Notes under the pieces: model-generated
What the model saw: the letters and a program-made list of their open reading frames with translations, nothing else
The model's database searches: none
Told to the model about the DNA's origin: nothing
Source: Triparma columacea
Lineage: Eukaryota; Sar; Bolidophyceae; Parmales; Triparmaceae
Assembly: GCA_030267965.1 (NCBI GenBank)
Contig: BRYA01001164.1
Location: forward strand, 1-17,245
Length of the DNA stretch: 17,245 nucleotides
Direction: 5' to 3'
Made by a program: the position numbers and the translations under genes
Part shown: in pieces, positions 1 through 17,245 of the stretch
How positions within the stretch are numbered: position 1 is the first letter of the stretch
How the letters are laid out: each line of letters begins with the position of its first letter

Positions 1-68
1 CCTAACCCTAACCCTAACCCTAACCCTAACCCTAACCCTAACCCTAACCCTAACCCTAACCCTAACCC
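1..68. repeat. Telomere, CCCTAA repeats (TTAGGG on the other strand)
   Basis: Eleven perfect copies of the hexamer CCTAAC followed by CC, read inward from base 1, so the window starts at a physical chromosome end. The G-rich TTAGGG strand is the minus strand and runs 5'->3' toward base 1, the correct polarity for a left end. TTAGGG telomeres are found in many eukaryotes, including stramenopiles, animals and fungi, so they do not fix the lineage alone. Confidence 0.98.
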
Positions 69-187
69 TTTACCCACTTTACACCTTTCACACACTTTAT
101 TTACTTTACACCTTTCACACACTTTATCTTCACACACACTTTTTTCTTACAAACACTTTACCTTTACCTTTACACACTCCATCTTAT
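69..187. repeat. Telomere-proximal subtelomeric short repeats
   Basis: Simple C/A/T sequence with no G on the + strand. A 25-bp block occurs twice without mismatch at 76-100 and 103-127 (27-bp period), followed by CTTTAC-type runs to about 175. No gene is visible. Confidence 0.8.
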
Positions 188-999: not shown

Positions 1000-3900
1000 T
1001 CACTTGCCATCCTCATCTTCAAGCGGCACTACACTGCTTACTTTTGCCTTCCCACCTCCTACTCCTATAATACCTCCACCATCAGGGCCTTCAACACTTG
1101 CTCTCCTAATACTTGCTCTAAAAGCACCTGCTAGACCACCCTCAGCTTCAGCATCAACACTTGCTCTCCTAACACTCTCTCTCCTTCTAGCATCTCCACC
1201 TGCTGGAATGAAGTCTACAGGTACTTTAGCCTTTATCACATCAGTGAACCACTCTGGCTGCTCCTCTTCCCATTGAGCCCAATTCGACTCAACCCATTTC
1301 TTAATTTCTTCTTCAATTGAGACCCAGTGATGCCTTGAGCGAGTAAATACTGCAAACTTCATTTTATCACTTTCTCCTTCAAGAAAAAAGGCCATTGACA
1401 TATCCTTTGATTTCTGTGTGCTCCAGAAGGTGTGCAAGTACTTCTTCTCAATGTTCCAAAAGAAGACAGCAAAGCATAGACTAGTTATTGGTATGAAATA
1501 CTTCCCAATCAGTGATGCAATATCAATTGCCTTCTCATTAACATGAGGAGTAGCTATATTTATTGACACTGGTAGGCTACTCATTGACAACACGAGACCA
1601 AATAACCAATATGCTCCCCCAACTTCATTAGGATGCCTAAACTGCACCATTGAAGTAAAGTCTGCAATGATCTTTACTATTACTCTGCAAAGAATACTAT
1701 TCACAATCTCTGCCTTACCCCCCAATGACATCCAGTACCAGAAGTCTCCCCTTAAAATCTTAACCAACAAGTACAGTCCAAGGTCAGCACCAATGTAGAG
1801 AAAGGCCCACCTACCTCCCATCAACGCAAGAAGAACTATTGTTGTACACCTTATGAGAAGCATTCCTGCTGACAACAGCAACATAGACACAAACACTACT
1901 GTTCTCTTGCTTGCTTTTGCTGGTATGTACCCATAAAAGTCTGGTACCTGTTCTCTCTTAGCAGGATCTGTGTCCCAGTCATAATTAATTGTTGCTGAGG
2001 CAAAGCCTGTTGTAATTGCTGACACTGCAACTGAAAGCCATGCTGAATTGCCAACATTTTTGTCATTTGTTGCTATAGCCATAAGTTGGATAATCACACC
2101 AGGGATGGCCTCAGCAAACATCTCTATCCCTTTCATGAATGTCATCTCAAACATTGGGTCAAATGCAGCCCTTACCTCTTGCTTTGCTCCAGTTGCAACT
2201 CTGTAAGCATCAACTGCAGGCTTGTACCCAAACAAGATTGGAATCCATTCCCTAACCACTCTCTTCATCCCCAACTTTCTGTTTTGTCCCCAAACAGCTA
2301 ACAATTGAATCCCAATTGACGCCACTAAGCTTGCCAGAGAAGCCTTAAAGTACCCATACTTCTTATCACTCCAAAACATGTATGTCACATACACATCAGT
2401 TAGCAAATCAGTCATGCTTGTGATAGCCCCAACAGTTACTCTTGCCTTCAACCCCCAAGGAACTTCCTCCAAAAGCCTGTAGCTAATTGTCTCAAGCATG
2501 GGTCTGAACCATTCATATTCCTCATCAAGCTCCTGTAAAGCAGGGAAATTTAAGATGAATTCATCAACAGCAGCAACTGGCTGAGTATTAATAGCCAAGC
2601 TCTTCGCTAGAGACTCTCCAATCTCCCTTCCTTCCTTCTCTCCCAGGTCTACAGCCTTACCCTCTACCTTCCTCAACTTGCACAGCTTGTTCTTGACAAC
2701 AGCGCCAAGCATTGGTGTGACAAACGCGTACTTCTCTGCAGCCTGTCTCAGAACATAGTTTGACCCTATAAATAACCTCACTGCCTCCTCCTTTGTCATT
2801 CCTTTCTTCCTGAAACTTAATGCAACCAACAGTTGCTCACCCAACAACTGCCCTATTTGGTTAGGATTTAAACCTGCATAGTCTTGTGAAGTATCATTCA
2901 TAGCATGTGAAGCAATTAGTGCGCCTCCGTTGTCCATGCCAACACTTGCTCTCCTAATACTAGCTCTCAAAACACCTGCTAGACCACCCTCAGCTTCAGC
3001 ATCAACACTTGCTCTCCTAACACTCTCTCTCCTTCTAGCATTTCCATCTGCTGGAATAAAATCTACAGGTACTTTAGCCTTCATGACATCAGTAAGCCAC
3101 TCTGGCTGCTCCTCTTCCCACTTAGCCCAGTTTAACGCAACCCACTTTTTAACTTCTCCTTCAATTGAGACCCACTGATGCCTTGAGTTATCTAAAACCT
3201 TAAACTTTGCTTCTTCACTTTCTTCTTCAAGAAAAAAGGCCATTGAATATTCCTTGCCTTTCTGTGTGCTCAAGAAGGTGGGCCAGTACTTCTTCTCAAT
3301 GTTGAAAAAGAAGACAGCAAAGCACATGGTAGTTATTAGTATAAAATACTTCACTATCGATGACGCAATATCAATTGCCTTCCCATCAACATAGGGTGAA
3401 GCTATATATATTGACACTGGTAGGCTCCCCATTGTCAATAGAAGGCCAAACATCCAGTTAGCTCCCCCAACTTCATTAGGATGTCTAAACTGCGCAATTG
3501 AAGTGAAGTCTACAACAATCTTTACCAGCACTCTGAACATAATACTAAACACTATTTCTGCCTTGCCACCAACAGGCATCCAATACCAGAAGTCTCCCCT
3601 AAAAATCTTAACCAAAATGTACAGGCTAAGGTCAGCTCCAATGTAGAGAATGGCCCAACTACCTCCCACCAACCCAAGAAGAACTATTGTTGTACACCTT
3701 ATTAGAAGTATCCCTGCTGACAACAGCAGCATGGAAACAAACACTACTGATCTCTTGCTTGCTTTTGCTGGTATATACCCATAGAAGTCTGGTGCCGTTT
3801 CTCTATTAAAAGGGTCTGTGTCCCAATCATAACTAATTGTTGCTGAGGCAAAGCCTGTTGTAATTGCTGACACTGCAACTGAAAGCCATGCTGAAGTTCC

Positions 3901-6900
3901 AACATCTTTGTCACTTGATGCTATAGCCATAAGTTGGATGATGACACCAGGGATGGCCTCAGCAAACATCTCTATCCCTTTCATGTAAGTCATTTCTGCC
4001 ATTGGTTCAATTTCAACCCCAATCTCTTGTTTTGCTCCCGTTGCAACCCTGTAAGCATCAACTGCAGGCTTGTACCCAAGCAAGATTGGAACCCATTCCC
4101 TCATCACCCTCACCATCCCCAACTTTCTGTTCTGTATCCAAACACCAAACAACTGAAACCCAATTGACACTGTCAAACTTGCCAGAGATGCGTTAAAGTA
4201 CCCATACTTTTTATCTCTCCAAAACATATTTGTCACATACACATCAGTCACCAAATCAAGCATGCTTGTGGCAGCACCAACAGTCACCCTTGCCTTCAAG
4301 CCTAATTTTGACTTCATAAATAGTTTCATGACAATCTCCTCAAGCATGGGCCTTAACCATGCTTGTTCATTCATGACTTTTTGCACTTCAGTGAATTGAT
4401 GTGCCCACTCATCTACAGCATGAGCAGCAGTCAAAGTAGTCAACATGACTGTTGCCATTGCACTCCCAATCTCCCATCCCCTGGCTTCCTCCTCACTATT
4501 ATCTTCTCCCTCATTTGTTGCTCTCCTTTTAAATTTGTTCATAACCACAGCATACAGCATAGTTCTCATGAAACCATGCTGCTCTGTAATCTCATTCAGT
4601 GCCCTATTGGCAGCAATGAACTCCCTCATGGCCTCTACTTTACTGTCCCCAACTTTTCTTTTCTTCACTTTCTCCATCAGCTGCTCTCCAAACCTCCTCC
4701 CATCCTGTTCCTCTGCTTCATTGCTCTTCAGCAGATTATCAAAGTAGTAAGCAGCATCAGTTGCCATGCTAAGGTGCTTGATTACACTTTGTTTGCTGGC
4801 AGCTTTTCCTAAACCCTCCTGTCTAGTCATCATTTCAACATCTGTCTTCATCTGGTCAGCCTCTGAGAACCTTACAGCTGTGAGATGCCCTTTGTGTTCA
4901 AGTGTGATTACAAGTGTCTGATAGTTAACTCTGTGAACCTCAAGCTGGGATTCAACTCCACTTTTAAGGCCCCAGAAGAATGCTGCAACTTCCTTGTGAG
5001 ATGCTCTCACAGTAATTGCAGTCTTCCCCCACCCCATTCCCTTCTCTGCCTTTATCATTGTCTTTCCAGTTGAACCACTACTCATCTCTTGAGCTCCGTC
5101 AATCTCATCAAAATGACTTTCAATCCCTGGCGCTCCCTCAACTGCAATTTCCTCAAACTTTTCAATAATCTGCTGTCTCTTGAAAGCGTCAATCTCTTTG
5201 CTCTTGTCAAACTTCTTCCTCATTATTGACAGATGAATAAGGAATTTAGCTGCTACTCTGTTCACAAATGCTGTGGGAATTACACCTGCAAAATCTACCT
5301 TTGTTGTGTAGGTCACATTCGTTTGGTGTATATCTCCAATTGGATCCAAAGGTTGTATGGTCCAAACTGTTGATGCAGAACCCAACACGCTTACGCTTGG
5401 TGATGATTTGTTGGTGTCGGCAACATTGATGGTAACCTTCCTGTCCTCCTTTTTCCATGTTATTGTTGTTCTGAATTCTCTGAAAGAGAAACCGGGGATT
5501 CTGAGGTCTCTGGTGGAATTGTAATTGAGAGAATGATGGTTGATTTTTTCTACATCAACAGAGACTAAACCGTGCAGCTTCATGTTCCTTCTTGTTTGTC
5601 TAGAATCCAGGTCTGTTATTACCCAGGCAGCACAAATCTCTGGTGTTTCATCCATCACAGTAGTGGCAACACCAGTCCCACCGCTTGCCCCATCAACGTG
5701 GACTAGCTTCATCTTGACCCTTGGGTCAGGACTCTTCAAATCATCAAAGTTTTCCTCTACCTTGCACTTCTCATAGAACTCCTTCCCCTTCCTAATCGCC
5801 TTCTCCTCTTCCTTAGTATAATCTTGAGGCTCATTCTTGATGATATTTGAAAGGTATTCCAGCGCAGCCCTGTCAATCTTGTCATCACTCTGGTGAAACT
5901 TCTTCCGCAATTCAATCATGTTGCTTGCATACCTGGTTGACAAGCGATTCATGACAAAACTTGGCACAGAGCCCCTGATGTCCACCTTCGAAGCAAATAT
6001 GACTCTAGTCTGGGGAACACCACCAGTGGTTGTGAGTGCCTCAAACAACCAGGTAGTTGTTGCAGATGCAAGCACAGTTCCAGAGCTCAATGGCAAGTCT
6101 TCGTTGAGCATGTCGGTGTCCTTGTACACTGTCCAGCATTTTTTACCTCCCTCCTCTGTCTGCCAGCATACAATTTGCCTCCACTCCCTATCAGAAAGCC
6201 CTCGCACTCCAAGACTCCTCCTGTTCAAATAAAGCTGTGAGTGGCCATTCATTTTCTTTGTTTTGATCGCCTTGTACTTCTTCCCAAGTTTGGCCTGTCT
6301 CTGCCTTGAATCCTTGATGAACTCGTATGCCACACACTCTGCAAGTGTAGCATCGATAACAGCCTCGCACACACCAAGGTTAACGCTATCACCCTCGAGG
6401 TGCACAGCTTTCATCTTCACCCTGGGATCTGGACTCTTCAAATTCTTGAACTTCTTACTTGTCATGCACTTCTCATAAAACTCCTTGCCATCCCTCATCA
6501 CTGCTTCCTCCTCTTCGCTGTAATCCTGTGGCTCATTCCTAATAATATTGGCAAGAGCCTCCAGCGCAGCTTGGTCAATCTCGTCGTCAGTCTGGGTGGC
6601 TCCACCGATGCCTATGAAGGACGCATTGCTCCTCTCATTTTTCCCCTCCAGCAAATGCTCGACTCCGCCAAGCTCGTCAGGATGATCTTCATCTTCGGAA
6701 AGAGGAATATTCTTAGCAACGCGTCCCTTCTCCACATCATTGTTATCTCTTGAGTAAATGACATCTTCAGGAGCACCAACAATCTTGTCGTTGATGTCGT
6801 TAAGGTTCTTTATCTCAATGACGTGTTCGGCAGCGACACTTACGGCAGATGCCTTGGATTTGGCTGTTTTTATCCCTTGAGCATCGATGGGGGTCTCTAA

Positions 6901-8668
6901 TCTTTCGATTCCCTCCTTCATCGTTGCGACGTTTACAAAGCTGTCGGGATTCATTTTCGAGGGCGCAGTCGTACGGCCGGCGGACGATGGCGCGGCGGTA
7001 ACACCATTTCGGTCTGCAACTGGACCGACAACGGGGTCGCTTGAAATGTCGGAGTTAAAAATTTCTTTTCTAGGATGAACTTCTGGATGAGAAATTTCTG
7101 AGGGTTTTGGGAGGGGGGATTTTAATGAAAAAAGGTTGAAAAAAGGCAAAATCAGAAACGCCCTCAAAACGGCTTCCAAGCCCTCCCCAAAGCAATCAAA
7201 ATACCCTACCCTCCGTCTACACGACTACCCAAACTCACCTCGTCTAGCGTCCTCGTGAAAGCTTCTAGAGACTGCGAAGGGGACAACGTTGTTACAAAAG
7301 TGAGACAAAATTACAAAGTTTCAACGCGTCCTCCTGCGACTCTCCCGCTCTCGCTTAGAGTATTAATATGTATTTGTTCTTATCCGGCGCTCACCGCACA
7401 ACTCACCTCGTCTGGCGTCCTCATGACCATTTTCAGAGTCTGCGGTAATGGCGATATGGTGGTTGTTAGTCAAAATGAAAAGATTTCAACGCCCTCATTT
7501 CTGTGTAGCATATCAAGCGCCCCACGTGGTCACCGGAGACGGAACCCATGCGGTCGCCGGAGATGGATCCGATGCGGTCGCCGCAGACAGAACCCACGCG
7601 GTCGCCGGAGATGGATCCCATGCGGTCACCGCAGACCAGCGCACGCGCGCATGTGCCGCGGCCGCCGCCCGTCGAGCTCGACGCCAAGGGCCAGGCCCTC
7701 CGCAAACGGCTCCACACGTTCCGCACATAGGCGGTGAGAAAAAACTACAAAGTTTCAACGCGCCCTCCCGCGACTCTTCTGCTCTCCCCTAGAGTATTAA
7801 AATGTATTTTTCTTTTCCAGCTCTCAACGCACAACTCACCTCGTCCCGCGTCCTCGTGGCGGTTTTCAGAGTCTGCGGTAATGGCGACTATGGTGTTTGT
7901 TAGTCAATATGAAAAGATTTCCACGCGTGACCCTTGATTCCGTGTAGAATATCAAGCGCCCCATGCGGTCGCCAGAGACGGAACCCATGCGGTTGCCGCA
8001 GAAGCGTCCCATGCGGTCGCCGCAGACCGGCGTGCGCGCGCGTGCACCGCGGCCGCCGCCCGTCGAGCTCGACGCCGAGGGCCAGACCCTCCGCGAACGG
8101 CTCTACGCGTTCCGCTTAAAACGCGTTTTTCCTTATCTGGTGCTCAACGCACAACTCACCTCGTTCGGCATCCTCGTGAGACATTTCAGATGCTGCAGAG
8201 GAAGCGACAAAAAGGGGGAAAGTGAGCAAAAGTGGCAAACTTCATCTTGTCCTCCGACACATCTCCGGCCCTCTAGTGAAGTATAAAAATGTTCTTTTCC
8301 TCCTAGAGCGCCCGACGCTTACTCACCTCGTCTGGCGTCCCCGTGATCATTTTCAAAGTCTACGGGTGTTGGCGATTATGATGTTTTTTTGAGATTTTTG
8401 GTAACATTTCAACACGCTCCTCAACCATCCCTCCTTTGCTCACTGATACATATGATTTGCGCTCTTCCAACATCACCCCCGACGCGAACTCACCTTGTCC
8501 AGCGTCTCCATGAGGCCTATCAATACCTGATGTTGAGATAATTGTCCTCTCACGGCCTATATTAGGTCCGCAGAGTTGATTCTCAGACACTGAGGCACTG
8601 ACTTGTGGCATATTAGTCTCCTCTACGCCCTCATCGCTCCCCCCTCGGGGTTCGTTCTCCACGTCCAT
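1000..8668 (-). CDS. Giant START-domain and tandem multi-pass membrane protein, with N-terminal micro-exons
   Basis: Predicted exons (minus): 8668-8494, then 33-nt exons 8359-8327, 8192-8160, 7872-7840, 7439-7407 and 7271-7239, then 7097-1000. The total is 6438 nt, or 2145 residues. Domains: acidic linker 1-115; two START-like lipid-binding domains at about 282-516 and 516-750, each ending in the typical LRKKF/MRKKF segment; a further partial START-like stretch around 800-860; then two copies (about 912-1501 and 1526-2119) of a module with roughly eight hydrophobic segments. Module motifs DLVTDVYV and FAEAIPGVIIQL recall XK/XKR-family membrane proteins, a weak assignment. Each module ends in RRESVRRASV-type basic phosphosite repeats. 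The likely role is lipid sensing or transfer at a membrane. The last exon is open upstream to a TTG at 7179 and its first ATG is 6954, so an unspliced 1984-residue product from 6954 is the alternative. The gene is transcribed toward the telomere. Confidence 0.85.
7528..7735. repeat. GC-rich cassette with 24-bp repeats inside an intron, copy 1
   Basis: About 4.6 copies of a 24-bp unit (7528-7551, 7552-7575, 7576-7599, 7600-7623, partial to 7637), followed by a GC-rich stretch. The + strand is open from 7548 to 7730 and reads MRSPEMDP-type octapeptides, then PRPPPVELDA and a GQALRKRL segment. It lies antisense within the 400-nt intron of the START gene. The flanks resemble each other (GATTTCAACGCCCTC before, AGTTTCAACGCGCCCTC after), as if the cassette had been inserted with a local duplication. 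I recognise no protein family in it. Confidence 0.65.
7967..8118. repeat. GC-rich cassette with 24-bp repeats inside an intron, copy 2
   Basis: Second copy of the 7528 cassette with only 2.7 repeat units (7967-7990, 7991-8014, partial to 8030), followed by the same PRPPPVELDA-GQTLRERL reading on the + strand. It sits in the 287-nt intron between two micro-exons, at the same relative position as copy 1. It therefore probably spread with duplication of the exon-intron unit rather than by a second insertion. The open frame carries MRSPETEP-like octapeptides but no convincing gene structure. Confidence 0.65.
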
Positions 8669-11246: not shown

Positions 11247-11718
11247 CTAAATATTTGTTTGTTATTGATATATTGTGGGATGTATTTGGTGAATGGGGTA
11301 TAATGTGTGGTGATTGTAGTGTTGTAGTTTAGTGATATTGTAGATATATAGTTATTTAGTAGTATTAGAGTCACTTGTTTGAAGGGCGAGTGGTTGGGGT
11401 GGCTGGGATAACCCTATTATTTTGTTGCTGTGTACGTATGATGATATTTCAGTGTGTTAAATGGTGTTTGTGTGGATATTATAGTGAGAATATGTTATAA
11501 TATCGTTGATAATTGGGATATTTGGTGAAATTGTTTGGTAATCCTTCTTTTGTATTCTTCTTCCACAAAAGTCACTTTTCCTGGTGGACGAGAGAAGAAG
11601 GAATAACTTCTTCACTTCTGCCTAAGTGGAGTAGCTTGAAAGGCTCTGTTGATCACATTCGCATCGTAATTTCCCGCTATAAACTTACACTTGGACTAGG
11701 TTCGCTAACTGCTCAAAA
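11247..11718. promoter_or_regulatory. Divergent intergenic promoter region
   Basis: A 472-bp T/G-rich (+ strand) region between two divergently transcribed genes. From about 11610 to the ATG at 11719 it shares a conserved block with the regions upstream of copies B and C. The remainder shows no gene or clear repeat. Confidence 0.55.
11678..11683 (+). promoter_or_regulatory. TATA-like box of ankyrin-MYND copy A
   Basis: TATAAA in the conserved context CCCGCTATAAACTTACA, starting 41 nt before the ATG. The same block precedes copies B (13223) and C (14313), while the surrounding sequence carries substitutions and small indels. I cannot see a transcription start. Confidence 0.45.
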
Positions 11719-12961
11719 ATGGAATCACAATCAGAGGTACGATCGTCACACAATTCATCAGAGACCACAAATGTGACAGTATATAGTATGTGCGATTTGA
11801 CAGAGGGTCAGCAGTTGTGCTGCAACTGGGCTCGTGACCAAGACTGGGATCGCATCAAGGGGTATGCCAAGGAACATGGTCCTGAGGTTTTGTTCGGAGT
11901 TTATTCAAGAGTTGTTGATGGTGAATTGAAGGTAGGTTCAGTCCTCTCACTCGCCTCTCAATACGGTAATGTTGAGATGGTCAAGTTTACCTTAGAGGCC
12001 GGTTTCGACAACAAGGAAGCCATGTACGTTGCCGCAGATGTGTCAATGAAGAGTAGTGACAATTCAACAATCCTGAGATTGCTCTTAGAACATGGACTTG
12101 ACAAACGTATAATCATCTAGTATTATGATCCGATTCTTTCTCTCTTTCTCTCCGATTGATTAGATCCTATCTGACTATACTCGACAAAGACATGGACTTG
12201 ACCCTAATATGGACCTACAAGTCGAAGGATTGGTGGAAAGGTTTACCAATCTTTTGGTGTCTGCTGCTGAAAGGGGACGCATTGATCAGGCCATAGCACT
12301 TCTTGATCATGGAGCAAATGTGAACAAGACAGCGGTTAATTCTGATGGAGATGTTGTTTCACCACTTACTTGTACTATGGGTTATGGAGCACAGGACATA
12401 AGCAGGCTGTTTCTCACGCGCGGTGCTATTCCAACCACCAACGACGTGGATAATGTGTTTAGACATTGCCTCCAGGCGTGCAAAGGAGAACACCGTGGGC
12501 TTAGTAGAGATGCCGCAATAAAGATGTTCGCAACATTTCTTCATCTCGGAAAGCCCGATTCCGACGTAGTTCGAGACAAATTCAAGTTATGCCCTCCTTC
12601 CTATCGCGATCCTACAATCGCCAACATCACGAAACAGTACCTTCAAGGCCGTCCCTTCTGCTGCGAGGTTTGCGAGGCTCTTACAGCCAAGGAGCGTGAC
12701 AAGCTCCATATGTGTCCCTGCCGCAACGTCGCCTACTGCTCTCGGTCGTGCCAGCTCAAGCACTGGAAGAAGCACAAGGTGCTGTGCACGGGACCGCTGA
12801 ACGAAAAAGGGGAGAGTGAGGCGATGGTCAAGAAAAGATCAAAGACAGGGAAGGGAGCGGCGGCGGGAGGAGTGGATGTGGGAGTAGCGGAAGGAGCAGT
12901 TGCGACGGGGAAGAATGGCAAGAAGGGGAAGAAGGGCAAGAGTAAGGGTAAGAAGAAGTGA
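11719..12961 (+). CDS. Ankyrin-repeat MYND zinc-finger protein, copy A (interrupted)
   Basis: Paralogue of the intact copy C (14347-15528). The first open frame (11719-12120) matches the N-terminus and first ankyrin-like repeats. The second (from ATG 12209 to 12961) carries the remaining repeats, the MYND finger (CEVC...CPC...YCSRSCQLKHW..H..C) and the Lys/Gly-rich basic tail. They are separated by a 100-bp insertion (about 12103-12202) that shifts the frame. Reading straight through is impossible. A GT-AG intron 12107-12221 (115 nt, phase 1) would restore one frame of 375 residues, replacing a PNMDLQV segment by a single Lys. Without such splicing this is a pseudogene or two fragments. MYND fingers bind Pro-rich partner peptides and ankyrin repeats bind proteins. 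Partners are unknown. Confidence 0.65.
12090..12202. other. 100-bp insertion flanked by a 13-bp direct repeat
   Basis: The 13-mer ACATGGACTTGAC occurs at 12090-12102 and 12190-12202. The intact paralogue has a single related site (about 14724-14736, two mismatches), so 87 bp of new sequence plus one repeat copy was gained. The inserted DNA has a GT at 12107, a long pyrimidine tract (12132-12152), TTAG at 12160-12163 and a CTGAC motif at 12171. The structure resembles insertion with target-site duplication, as in intron-generating (introner) elements. Confidence 0.7.
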
Positions 12962-14007: not shown

Positions 14008-14346
14008 TGGTCAAGAAAAGATCAAAGACAGGGAAGGGAGCGGCGGCGGGAGAAGTGAATGAAACAATACAGTAATGCGGCGGCTATAAGTAATTTTTCA
14101 GAATTCTATGTACATCAAATTGCTTATTTTTAATTGCGATTGCGATAGCGTGAGAATGAACAATTTCATATTTCTCCAACTAATTTTGTCCATCTCTGCT
14201 TCAAGCAAACTTTCTCAGAGGAGGACTCCAATATTAGCACCTACACGACACTTCTGCCTAAGTGGAGTAGCTTGAAAGGCTTTGTTGATAAGTTTCACAT
14301 CGTAACTTCCGCTATAAACTTACACTTGGGGTAGGTTCGCTCAAAT
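14008..14346. repeat. Remnant 3' end of an ankyrin-MYND gene plus duplicated intergenic region
   Basis: Just after the F-box stop, 14008-14050 repeats the end of the ankyrin-MYND reading frame (TGGTCAAGAAAAGATC through the GGCGGCGGGAG run), matching 12825-12870. It is followed by the same 3' flank and promoter as 12962-13256. This piece is no longer translated from copy B and marks the right junction of the F-box replacement. Confidence 0.8.
14313..14318 (+). promoter_or_regulatory. TATA-like box of ankyrin-MYND copy C
   Basis: TATAAA in the conserved context CCGCTATAAACTTACAC, 34 nt upstream of the ATG at 14347. The spacing matches copy B. Confidence 0.45.
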
Positions 14347-15528
14347 ATGGACTCTCAATCAGAGGTACAATCGTCACACAATTCATCAGAGACCACAAAT
14401 GTGACACACACAGTATCTAGTTTGGACGATTTAACAGACGGTCAGCAGTTGTGCTACAAGTGGGCTGCTGAACAAGACTGGGATCGCATCAAGGGGTATG
14501 CCATTGAACATGGTCCTGAGGTTTTGTTCGGAGTTTATTCAAGAGTTGTTGATGGCGAATTGAAGGTAGGTTCAGTCCTCACACACGCCTCTCAATACGG
14601 TAATGTTGAGATGGTCAAGTTTACCTTAGAGGCCGGTTTCGACAACAAGGAAGCCATGTACTCGGCCGCAAGTATATCAATGCAGAATAGTGACAATTCA
14701 ACAATCTTGAGATTGGTCTTAGAACATGGATTTGACCCCAACATGGACCTCCGAGTCGAATTTTCGGTGGAACACTCTTCCAACCTTTTGATACTTGCTG
14801 CTGAAACGGGACACATTGATCATGCCATGGCTCTTCTCGATCATGGAGCAAATGTGAACAAGACAGTGCTTTCCCCTAGTGGACCAGTTCTTTCACCACT
14901 TTTTTTTACTGTCAATTTTGGAGCACACGACATATGCAGGCTGTTTTTCGCGCGCGGTGCTATTCCAACCACCAACGATGTGCTTTATGTGTTTCGCGTC
15001 TGCCTCAAAGCGTGCAAAGGAGAACACCCTACCCTTAGTAGAGATGTCGCAATAAAGATGTTCACAACATTTCTTCATCTCGGAAAGCCCGATTCCGACG
15101 TAGTACGAGATATATTCAATTCATGCCCTCCTTCCAGAAGAGATCCTACAATCGGCAACATCACGAAACATTACCTTCAAGGCCGTCCCTTCTGCTGCTT
15201 CGTTTGTGAGGCTCTAACTGCCAAGTCCCGCGACAAGCTCCTAATGTGTCCCTGTCGCAACGTCGCCTACTGCTCAAAGGATTGCCAGCTCAAGCACTGG
15301 AAGAAGCACAAGGTTCTATGCACGGGACCGCTGAACGAAAAAGGGGAGAGTGAGGCGATGGTCAAGAAAAGATCCAAGACAGGGAAGGGAGCGGCGGCGG
15401 GAGCAACGGTGGTGGGAGTAGCGGATGTGGAAGTAGCGGATGGTGGATTAGCGGAAGGAGCAGTTGCGACGGGTAAGAATAGCAAGAAGGGCAAGAAGGG
15501 GAAGAAGGGCAGGGGTAAGAAGAAGTGA
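14347..15528 (+). CDS. Ankyrin-repeat MYND zinc-finger protein, copy C (intact)
   Basis: A single open frame of 393 residues from an ATG in the same context as copies A and B. A Ser-rich N-terminus is followed by about four ankyrin-like repeats (residues about 70-215; for example HASQYGNVEMVKFTLEAG and LAAETGHIDHAMALLDHGAN), then a MYND finger at about 284-325 with Cys284, Cys287, the CPC pair, YCSKDCQLKHW, a late His and the last Cys325. The CPC spacing (one residue between the cysteines) is tighter than the usual CxxC. The C-terminus is Gly/Ala-rich and ends in a Lys/Gly basic tail, a possible nuclear or nucleolar signal. The family's role is protein binding; I cannot name a specific function. 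It is very similar to copy A, which identifies the break there. Confidence 0.9.
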   Translation: MDSQSEVQSSHNSSETTNVTHTVSSLDDLTDGQQLCYKWAAEQDWDRIKGYAIEHGPEVLFGVYSRVVDGELKVGSVLTHASQYGNVEMVKFTLEAGFDNKEAMYSAASISMQNSDNSTILRLVLEHGFDPNMDLRVEFSVEHSSNLLILAAETGHIDHAMALLDHGANVNKTVLSPSGPVLSPLFFTVNFGAHDICRLFFARGAIPTTNDVLYVFRVCLKACKGEHPTLSRDVAIKMFTTFLHLGKPDSDVVRDIFNSCPPSRRDPTIGNITKHYLQGRPFCCFVCEALTAKSRDKLLMCPCRNVAYCSKDCQLKHWKKHKVLCTGPLNEKGESEAMVKKRSKTGKGAAAGATVVGVADVEVADGGLAEGAVATGKNSKKGKKGKKGRGKKK

Positions 15529-15818: not shown

Positions 15819-17245
15819 ATGTTGAGCAAGGTGCAACTCATTGTCGTCCTTACCATCAGCATTATTACTATTAATAAGAGCTATGGAGTGAATGGATTGT
15901 GCACGTCTGGATTGAGTACTGGCAGATTAGGTGGTGGATTAAGTAGTGGCGTACATAACACAATTCAAAATAAAATATCCCCAAAAAGTAGCCTGAGGAA
16001 CCCGAGCAAAATCACAACGACACAAACAACACAATTTGGACGCACAACAAGCACATTAGCAAGCACGTTAGCAAGTACATCAGCGAGCACATTGAGAAAT
16101 AGGAGAAATAGGAGAAAGAGGTGAGATATTCCCAGCTAACCCTATAACTATTTGCTCCCTCAAATCATACTTACCCCTTACCACCTTCTCTCTGCCCCAC
16201 ATAGTCTCCTCATCCTCCACGCAACGGCTCTCCCTCCACCCGTCACAAACTCTACCTCCTCCTCCTCCTCCTCTACCCCCCTCCCCCCCTCCCCTCTCCC
16301 CCCCCCCTCCCCCCCCCTCCACCCCTTCCTCAATCTCCTTCGCTCCACCTTCTCCTTCACCCGTCCCCACACCCTCTACGGTTCCCTCCTAGCCGTCCCC
16401 TCCGTCTACCTCTTCACCTCCCTCCCTCTCCCCTCCTCCCCCTCCCTCCCCTTCGCTCTAAAGGCGATCGCTGCCGCGCTTCTACCGTCCCTTGCCGCGA
16501 ACGTATACATAACAGGACTGAACCAGATAACCGACGTCGAGATCGACCGTATAAACAAGCCCTACCTCCCTCTCCCCTCCTCTCTCCTATCTCTCCGCGC
16601 CGCCACGTCAATAACCCTCCTCTCACTTCTCCTATCCCTAACCCCCCTCCTATACCCGATCTACCTCCCCACCCTAACGTCACCGTACCTCCTACCGACC
16701 CTAATATTCCCCTTAATAATGGGCACACTATACTCCCTCCCGCCGTTCCGTTTAAAGCGTTCCCCCCTCCTCGCAATGACACTTATATCACTAACCCGAG
16801 GCCCTTGTATAATCGCGGGCTTCCACCTACACTTCCTGGACGTTGTTTTAAGGTCGATAATACCACCTTTACCATCACCATCCCTCCTCACTGCACTTAC
16901 ACGAGTACTACCACAAGTAACGTATGGTTTGATAATGGGTTGTTTAATCGCCTTCCTAAAAGACGCGCCTGACGTGCAGGGGGATAAGGAGGTCGGGGGG
17001 TATAGGACTTACGCGCAGGTCATTGGGAAGGGTAGGGTTATGAGGTTCGGTGTAGCAGGGGTTGCTTTTACTCATGCTGTAGCGGGGGGGGGGATGGTCG
17101 CGAAAATAATTTGGGGAGGGGGAGGGGGGGGGTTTAAAGGGGTAGGGACGGCGGCGGCTTTTGGAGGGATGGCGGGGTGGATATGGAGGAGGTATAAAAA
17201 TAAGGAGGGGGAGGGGAAGGAGTATGGGGTTTATATGGACTGCTG
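15819..17245 (+). CDS. Plastid homogentisate prenyltransferase (UbiA family), 3' end outside window
   Basis: Exon 1 is 15819-16120 and exon 2 runs from 16205 to beyond the window. The 84-nt intron (GTGAGA...CACATAG, phase 2, with CTAAC at 16136 and a pyrimidine tract) removes an in-frame TGA. The N-terminus has a hydrophobic signal peptide (about residues 4-24), then a Ser/Thr/Arg- and Pro-rich stretch, as in bipartite targeting to complex plastids. The UbiA core starts at about 155 with FSFTRPHTLYGS. The first prenyl-diphosphate/Mg site is NQITDVEIDRINKPYLPL (Asn207, Asp211, Asp215). The second is KDAPDVQGD (Asp354, Asp357, Asp361). The NKPYLPL segment is typical of homogentisate phytyl- or solanesyltransferases, which prenylate homogentisate for tocopherol or plastoquinone synthesis. 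I cannot separate these two. By comparison with the family only about 20-30 residues are missing. The sense strand turns from C-rich to G-rich near 16970. Confidence 0.9.

Follow-up and report, generated by a model that had tools for sequence, protein, structure and literature searches.

The window analysed here, a stretch of 17,245 nucleotides from Triparma columacea, carries on its minus strand a series of exon-like segments of exactly 33 nt that precede a 6.1 kb open frame. The Parmales, to which Triparma belongs, are small algae with silicified cells and form the sister group of the diatoms. The locus raises the question of whether these segments are coding exons of the giant gene and, if so, how such short and similar units came to be arrayed in this way. 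The layout in the window, in the direction of the gene, is as follows (the 27 copies are the set of related loci, window included, described below).

8494..8668, minus strand: exon 1 (type I N-terminus), ATG at 8668; 58 codons and one base
8360..8493, minus strand: intron 1, 134 nt, GT-AG
8327..8359, minus strand: micro-exon B, 33 nt, DFENDHGDARR; class B is found in 8 of the 27 copies
8193..8326, minus strand: intron 2, 134 nt, GT-AG
8160..8192, minus strand: micro-exon C, 33 nt, ASEMSHEDAER; class C is found in 9 of the 27 copies
7873..8159, minus strand: intron 3, 287 nt, with a G+C-rich insert and a 24-nt minisatellite (segment 7960-8115)
7840..7872, minus strand: micro-exon D1, 33 nt, DSENRHEDAGR; class D
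7440..7839, minus strand: intron 4, 400 nt, with the intron-3 insert again (segment 7569-7724, 86% identical)
7407..7439, minus strand: micro-exon D2, 33 nt, DSENGHEDARR; class D
7272..7406, minus strand: intron 5, 135 nt, GT-AG
7239..7271, minus strand: micro-exon E, 33 nt, VSRSFHEDARR; the final unit ahead of the body
7098..7238, minus strand: intron 6, 141 nt, ending at the body acceptor
1000..7097, minus strand: body, the large last exon, 6.1 kb; 2032 codons including the codon split at the junction, in the phase of the array
1..69, no strand: telomere repeat (CCTAAC)11.5, towards which the gene is directed

Exon 1, the five units and the body form one open frame in the window, ending with the stop codon at 1000-1002 (minus strand). 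Every junction of the array is of phase 1, that is, it splits a codon after the first base, so that each 33-nt unit adds exactly 11 residues. A sequence-only reading of the same DNA had described the unit sizes, the AG and GTGAG borders, the phase and the codon pattern, and re-reading the sequence found all of these as stated; the measured introns likewise fall in the range of 134-400 nt that it gave. It had also proposed that one phase joins the ATG frame at 8668 to the body, which is the case with either of two acceptors, 7098 (2032 codons) or 7083 (2027 codons). Of 22 copies examined, 15 (the window among them) have an acceptor of the 7098 type, CAG/AAATTTCT, 134-143 nt past the last unit, and all 15 place the body in the array phase; the recurrence was established for the 7098 type.

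Two of the claims have to be narrowed. Six 33-nt units had been counted, of which five are free-standing micro-exons and the sixth (8526-8494) is the 3' end of exon 1, the peptide of which ends in ..GIDRPHGDAGQ/G, with the donor after 8494. The bases ahead of this end motif are AG in only one of 24 copies, the window itself, and otherwise GT (9), GG (8), TG (4) or CC (2). Because the AG is private to the window copy, the motif GIDRPHGDAGQ is homologous to the units but is not a separate exon. The residues H, D and A had been called invariant, with codons that differ only at synonymous positions; this holds for the six motifs of the window, but across paralogs these residues are common rather than invariant (110, 114 and 100, respectively, of the 123 eleven-residue units in the 27 copies).

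Outside the gene, the interval from the telomere to the end of the gene (70-933) contains several tandem repeats, whose units measure 27, 121, 69 and 51 bases. Two similar tandem ankyrin-MYND-like genes lie on the plus strand at 11683-12961 and 14335-15528, with an F-box frame in between (Pfam reports Ank and zf-MYND for the second gene, the sole one of the pair that was run), and a UbiA-type prenyltransferase at 16140-17243 (plus strand) is cut by the window end.

The array is far from unique in the genome. Across the 37.85 Mb searched (789 pieces), the array gave 144 DNA matches, and a pattern of the main unit class, D (35 places, at most three mismatches), matched 355 times, compared with 0 for the same pattern reversed. 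The pattern of the last unit, class E, matched 58 times, compared with 0 in the reversed control, although a few of the weakest matches resemble class F. The best 40 of 196 candidate loci lie on 39 contigs; the analysed set consists of 27 copies (the window, six and a further twenty loci), with 13 of the 40 left out, and, having been selected by best score, is biased to window-like copies. Four of the copies (L003, L024, L028 and L029) are incomplete or without exon 1 or body, and in L032 the first match is degenerate and exon 1 is not recognised, yet this copy is included among the 23 used for counting units.

The copies that could be placed are found near contig ends. All 24 minus-strand class-E matches are within 12.7 kb of the contig start, and the 9 of the 34 plus-strand matches that fall on contigs of known extent are all at most 11.2 kb from the contig end, the other 25 being unplaced. 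The array genes are directed to the nearer contig end, as in the window, where this end is a telomere and the telomere repeats start 7 kb from the array; telomere repeats are absent from some contig ends. The array thus belongs to a subtelomeric multigene family with many copies.

Some observations bear on the chromosomes themselves. Contigs C70 (75,484 bp) and C71 (84,296 bp), with loci L038, L045, L063 and L075, have telomere repeats at both ends, which gives them the appearance of entire chromosomes, 75-84 kb long. Among 20 contigs, most of them preselected for telomere repeats, such repeats are present at both ends in 2, at one end in 13 and at none in 5. The N50 is given as 63-83 kb for the published Triparma assemblies except T. 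retinervis (8.2 kb) (PMC10328945), and the genome may consist of perhaps hundreds of very small chromosomes.

The arrays follow a strict grammar. A profile built from clear units yields 182 hits in the 27 copies, namely 24 exon-1 ends, 153 complete internal units and 5 units that are continuous with the body; the 153 comprise 94 units of class D, 25 of F, 17 of E, 9 of C and 8 of B. The lengths of the internal units are 33 nt (123), 45 nt (25), 36 nt (4) and 39 nt (1), the class-F unit of 45 nt, VSKSKSSHEDAGQDR, encoding a 15-residue repeat. All 153 are preceded by AG and followed by GT, with the donor GTGAG in 126 and GTAAG in 27, and 152 are free of stop codons, the exception being one F exon in L035; the degenerate first hit of L032, which is counted as an exon-1 end, also contains a stop. 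Copies contain 3 to 11 units (23 copies, fused units counted). The order runs from exon 1 through B and C to the D units, among or ahead of which F units are placed, and from there, in most cases via E, to the body; B and C are confined to copies with N-terminal types I or III, except that C also occurs in L032, the N-terminus of which is unrecognised.

In these 27 copies, the borders were taken from the profile, and several were set by hand with the frame in view. Four held-out copies were therefore delimited by a frame-blind border rule, under which every one of their 32 internal units measured 33, 39 or 45 nt and was stop-free, although the held-out copies are related, so that the 32 units do not amount to 32 independent events. 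Taking simply the nearest YAG and GTRAG in the 27 copies reproduces the length seen in the alignment, be it 33, 39 or 45 nt, for 142 of the 153 internal units, four units with CAG-CAG acceptors being entered as 33 nt in this tally. The 11 exceptions are ten E units at 26 nt and one F unit at 32 nt, with an exonic TAG. Applied to the 24 exon-1 ends, the same rule returns 23 to 70 nt, as expected for ends without an acceptor. The introns are GT-AG in 155 of 155 cases, and their lengths show no preference modulo 3 (59, 52 and 44). The class-D splice-site consensus, TACCGCAG / GTGAGTTG, is near-identical between units.

Given that every complete unit has a length divisible by three and phase-1 borders at either end, the frame would survive any skip, and in-frame skipping is possible, as far as sequence can tell, for any combination of units. 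The array might, then, be a regulated splicing switch by which each gene produces a ladder of proteins in 11-residue steps, a reading that goes back to the earlier sequence-only description and that we regard as possible but doubtful. Besides the symmetry of the complete units, it can draw on a variation in L028, where four D units (4632, 5389, 5781 and 6224 in reverse-complement coordinates) have tandem CAG-CAG acceptors that permit 33 or 36 nt, either of them in frame. The splice sites of the main class, however, differ hardly at all from unit to unit, the donors being GTGAG or GTAAG throughout, and symmetry does not require skipping: a shared phase 1 makes the loss, gain and exchange of units frame-safe and so can alone explain that only symmetric units are seen, duplication by itself being enough to yield them. 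The ladder of lengths, from 3 to 11 units, is visible between gene copies, not between isoforms, and protein-database searches aimed at the N-terminus returned only unspliced reading frames and gene models, with no joined isoform. The fold of the 400-nt intron RNA, considered as a switch, is no better than that of shuffled sequences (z -0.34).

A search of the genome for spliced retrocopies with one D-D junction pattern gave 0 matches. Eight protein hits from ENA and JGI sources (P0016-P0023) encode close relatives of exon 1, and the family seems to be present beyond this assembly. As transcript evidence these hits were rejected: all of them read from exon 1 into the intron and hence derive from unspliced sequence.

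Whether the array is translated can be gleaned from its pattern of substitutions. Among 74 distinct class-D exons, pN is 0.121 and pS is 0.424 in the proposed phase (pN/pS 0.285), whereas the two alternative forward phases have pN/pS of 0.92 and 1.31; a low value, 0.42, is also obtained for one of the reverse readings. The mean diversity of class D at codon positions 1, 2 and 3 is 0.167, 0.096 and 0.271, respectively. Judged by these values, selection acts on the main unit class in a single frame, as it would on coding sequence. The smaller classes E (14 distinct exons) and F (15 distinct exons) contain too few changes to be very informative, with pN/pS of 0.69 and 1.07, respectively, and a reading shifted by two is lower than the proposed phase in both (0.39 and 0.21). 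For exon 1, pN/pS is 0.55 in 12 copies, and the alternative frames have 0.89 and 0.73, but in the eight type II exons alone another frame is lower (0.56 compared with 0.65). In 12 copies with the body type alpha, pN/pS of the body is 0.63 up to codon 100 and 0.42 from there on.

Continuity of the frame across the whole gene is most direct in L030, L032, L033, L034 and L035, where a D-like unit without a donor reads straight into the body in the array phase. In most of the remaining copies, an in-phase body acceptor is present but was picked among several, which makes it weak evidence of phase; L028 yielded no in-phase body past its last unit, and L003 is truncated. In-frame joining of a D and an E unit to the body is also annotated in the T. 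columacea protein TrCOL_g13771 (P0013), a deposited gene model that matches contig C161 at 100% identity over residues 37-929. According to the account of the assemblies (PMC10328945), the annotation was made without RNA-seq for this species, whereas RNA-seq was used for T. laevis f. inornata, T. verrucosa, T. retinervis and 'Scaly parma'. Upstream, the ATG at 58 codons is also found in L002, L003, L020 and most of the homologous type II exons; it is missing in L013, L017, L030 and the held-out L080, which have an ATG 32 codons upstream. The earlier proposal that the units join the giant gene as coding, symmetric phase-1 exons is supported by the constraint on class D, the lengths in multiples of three, the shared phase and the five fusions.

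An alternative is that translation starts at the methionine of the body (MNPDSFV, window 6954), with the array being 5' untranslated or only sometimes translated. A methionine is indeed common near the start of each main body type (VPM-NPDSF, QSM-TLDPD, VVM-SAEKK), although L002 lacks the one of its own body type. An untranslated leader, however, needs no frame, so that the class-D constraint in a single phase counts against it, as do the invariable multiples of three, the near absence of stops in the internal units and the in-phase ATG that opens exon 1 in most copies. This alternative has little chance of being correct.

With regard to the origin of the arrays, the introns are as informative as the exons. 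In the window, introns 3, 4 and 5 are mutually alike (z 8.0 to 13.7 relative to shuffled sequences, the comparison being limited to the outer 140 nt where introns are long), and introns 3 and 4 have a 156-nt segment in common; the likeness of introns 1 and 2 is weaker (z 2.7 to 7.1). These related introns support the earlier suggestion that whole exon-intron units have been duplicated. Among the 94 class-D units, 16 have their best match within the same copy, compared with 3.9 expected and a maximum of 14 in 2000 permutations, which indicates that local duplication occurs. Most D units have their best match in other copies, as would be expected if units move between subtelomeres.

The genes are mosaics also at a larger scale. 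N-terminal types I and II are combined with bodies alpha, beta and gamma, and body alpha with three N-terminal types; type II with a gamma body recurs in the held-out L080. The N-terminal exons of P0004 and of P0006/P0012, which are annotated proteins without an array, are joined to arrays in this genome: L022 is identical to P0004 at 99 of 139 aligned positions, and L019 to P0006, P0011 and P0012 at 21 to 23 of 30. In a Mantel comparison of 10 copies, exon 1 and body are uncorrelated (r 0.05), but so are two adjacent parts of the body in a control (-0.06), and the idea that the array is a special site of shuffling was abandoned, mosaicism being general. A correlation between exon 1 and a later part of the body (r 0.52, p 0.008) vanished in the eight type II copies (r 0.02).

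The D introns contain a 24-base G+C-rich minisatellite (window 7521-7636 and 7960-8026), and the core that adjoins it has 126 matches in the genome, one of which, on the minus strand (C154:38006), is far from the contig start. Such a long G+C-rich core, common to D introns, could point to gain of introns in the manner of introners, in which a continuous coding repeat of 33 nt would have been split later by a mobile intron between all its units. The intron classes, however, differ in length and are only partly alike, the window introns of 134-135 nt are without the core, and no clear spread of the core to other genes is apparent among the 100 matches listed out of 126, most of which are not placeable relative to contig ends. 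Duplication of a unit together with its intron accounts for the similarity of exons and introns at once, and gain by a mobile intron is a very improbable explanation. That the units are just subtelomeric repeat DNA, a minisatellite dispersed by exchange between subtelomeres that has taken its splice-like borders with it and does not act as exons, is hardly credible: the placeable copies do lie near contig ends, and both the minisatellite in introns 3 and 4 and the 126-fold core are repetitive, but constraint is phase-specific, the length rule holds in the exons and is absent in the introns, GT-AG borders are universal, and the frame is continuous with exon 1 and the body.

With the sequences and phases, the frame constraint on the main class, the copy numbers, the chimeric combinations and the START fold (see below) in hand, the phase-1 micro-exon array is, with high probability, the coding N-terminal repeat of a subtelomeric START-fold/XK-related family and has grown by exon-intron duplication. 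The protein would carry charged repeats of 11 residues (15 in one class), each encoded by its own symmetric, phase 1-1 micro-exon, and the pre-mRNA would be spliced from exon 1 through the units to the body. All units are most likely included normally, given the short introns and the uniform splice sites, a combination that would favour intron definition. Array length would shift through duplication or loss of whole exon-intron units and, presumably, recombination between subtelomeres. With the same phase at every boundary, any number and order of units, and any N-terminal exon with any body, would remain in frame. The repeat might set the length of a linker or mediate an interaction.

The micro-exons account for 55 residues, or 2.6%, of a predicted product of 2145 residues. 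The following regions of the body could be assigned.

5890..6591, minus strand: START-fold domain (AlphaFold2 mean pLDDT 86.8; best PDB match 3p0l_A, E 1.1e-12)
5209..5889, minus strand: putative second copy of the domain, proposed from a repeated start motif
1651..2436, minus strand: XK-related region (PF09815), residues 1597-1858 of the open frame

The top PDB matches of the folded domain are the START domains of StAR, STARD13, STARD10 and CERT. Pfam START (PF01852) gave no match at E <= 0.1 for either of the window domains, and a distant homologue, P0014, matches it at 1.5e-9. The PF09815 scores are 26.3 and 27.0 bits, compared with a gathering cut-off of 24.8. The giant START membrane protein that had been proposed from the sequence is thus upheld by the modelled START fold and by an XK-related region above the Pfam cut-off. 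Some animal members of the XK-related family function as phospholipid scramblases. Exon 1 starts with MDVENEPRGGSDEG, which is hydrophilic by inspection, with no hydrophobic start. The product can be tentatively described as a membrane protein that binds lipid and has at its N-terminus a linker of charged repeats, which is probably flexible.

To our knowledge, arrays of near-identical micro-exons have been described mainly from animals. The closest in layout, known to us by title, would be the tandemly repeated 81-base exons, one repeat per exon, reportedly found in Schistosoma by Davis et al. in 1988; these differ in exon size (81 nt as opposed to 33 or 45 nt) and in belonging to an animal parasite rather than a silicified alga. 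Collagen and the PEVK region of titin are repeat proteins that have grown by duplication of small symmetric exons, but their exons are larger than those in Triparma, and they are encoded by single genes that are not subtelomeric. In the troponin T gene TNNT3, as described in the source consulted, the 5' cassette exons are likewise mostly of one phase class, which is attributed to exon shuffling (PMC2447309); TNNT3, however, is a single-copy muscle gene with alternative splicing, whereas Triparma has a family of near-identical repeated units.

The micro-exon genes (MEGs) of Schistosoma are described as genes in which exons of 6-36 bp account for about 80% of the coding region, as mostly encoding secreted proteins with signal peptides and as being alternatively spliced (PMC5825161, PMC10526429). 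On these descriptions, the two systems are alike in having short symmetric exons, the skipping of which keeps the frame, and in forming multigene families (PMC5825161, PMC10526429). The size range of the MEG exons accommodates 127 of the 153 internal units of Triparma, all of phase 1-1; 128 of the units are 33-39 nt long, and the 25 class-F units, at 45 nt, exceed the range. The differences are that the Triparma micro-exons make up 2.6% of the product, not about 80%, and that this product is a predicted membrane protein with a hydrophilic start and a single repeat motif, its splicing being deduced from the sequence. By analogy, the array would work like the schistosome MEGs but lacks two of their defining features, the coding share and the secreted product.

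START proteins are reported to be enriched in parmalean genomes, with up to 141 genes in Tetraparma gracilis (PMC10328945). The words 'telomer', 'subtelomer', 'chromosome' and 'intron' have 0 occurrences in the main text of that article, to the extent available, and in the open-licence PMC literature nothing was found that pairs Triparma with microexon or micro-exon, or Parmales with telomer, which does not imply absence from print. Annotation seems to miss most of the arrays: a single deposited model with joined units appeared among the results of the N-terminal protein searches.

One alga contains several hundred matches to the main unit class, and array length, unit order, N-terminus and body all vary within a single genome. 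This makes the family a natural test bed for the duplication of exon-intron units and for the splicing of very short exons, as well as for the question of whether symmetric exons are kept for the variety of splicing they allow or are the sole survivors of duplication. More speculatively, and with the odds rather against it, combinatorial micro-exon splicing might have in this family a protist counterpart that is independent of animals: dozens of subtelomeric START/XK proteins would tune the length and charge of their N-termini both by splicing choice within a gene and by the rapid trading of micro-exons among chromosome ends, and the shared phase 1 would serve as a universal joint that lets N-termini and bodies be interchanged.
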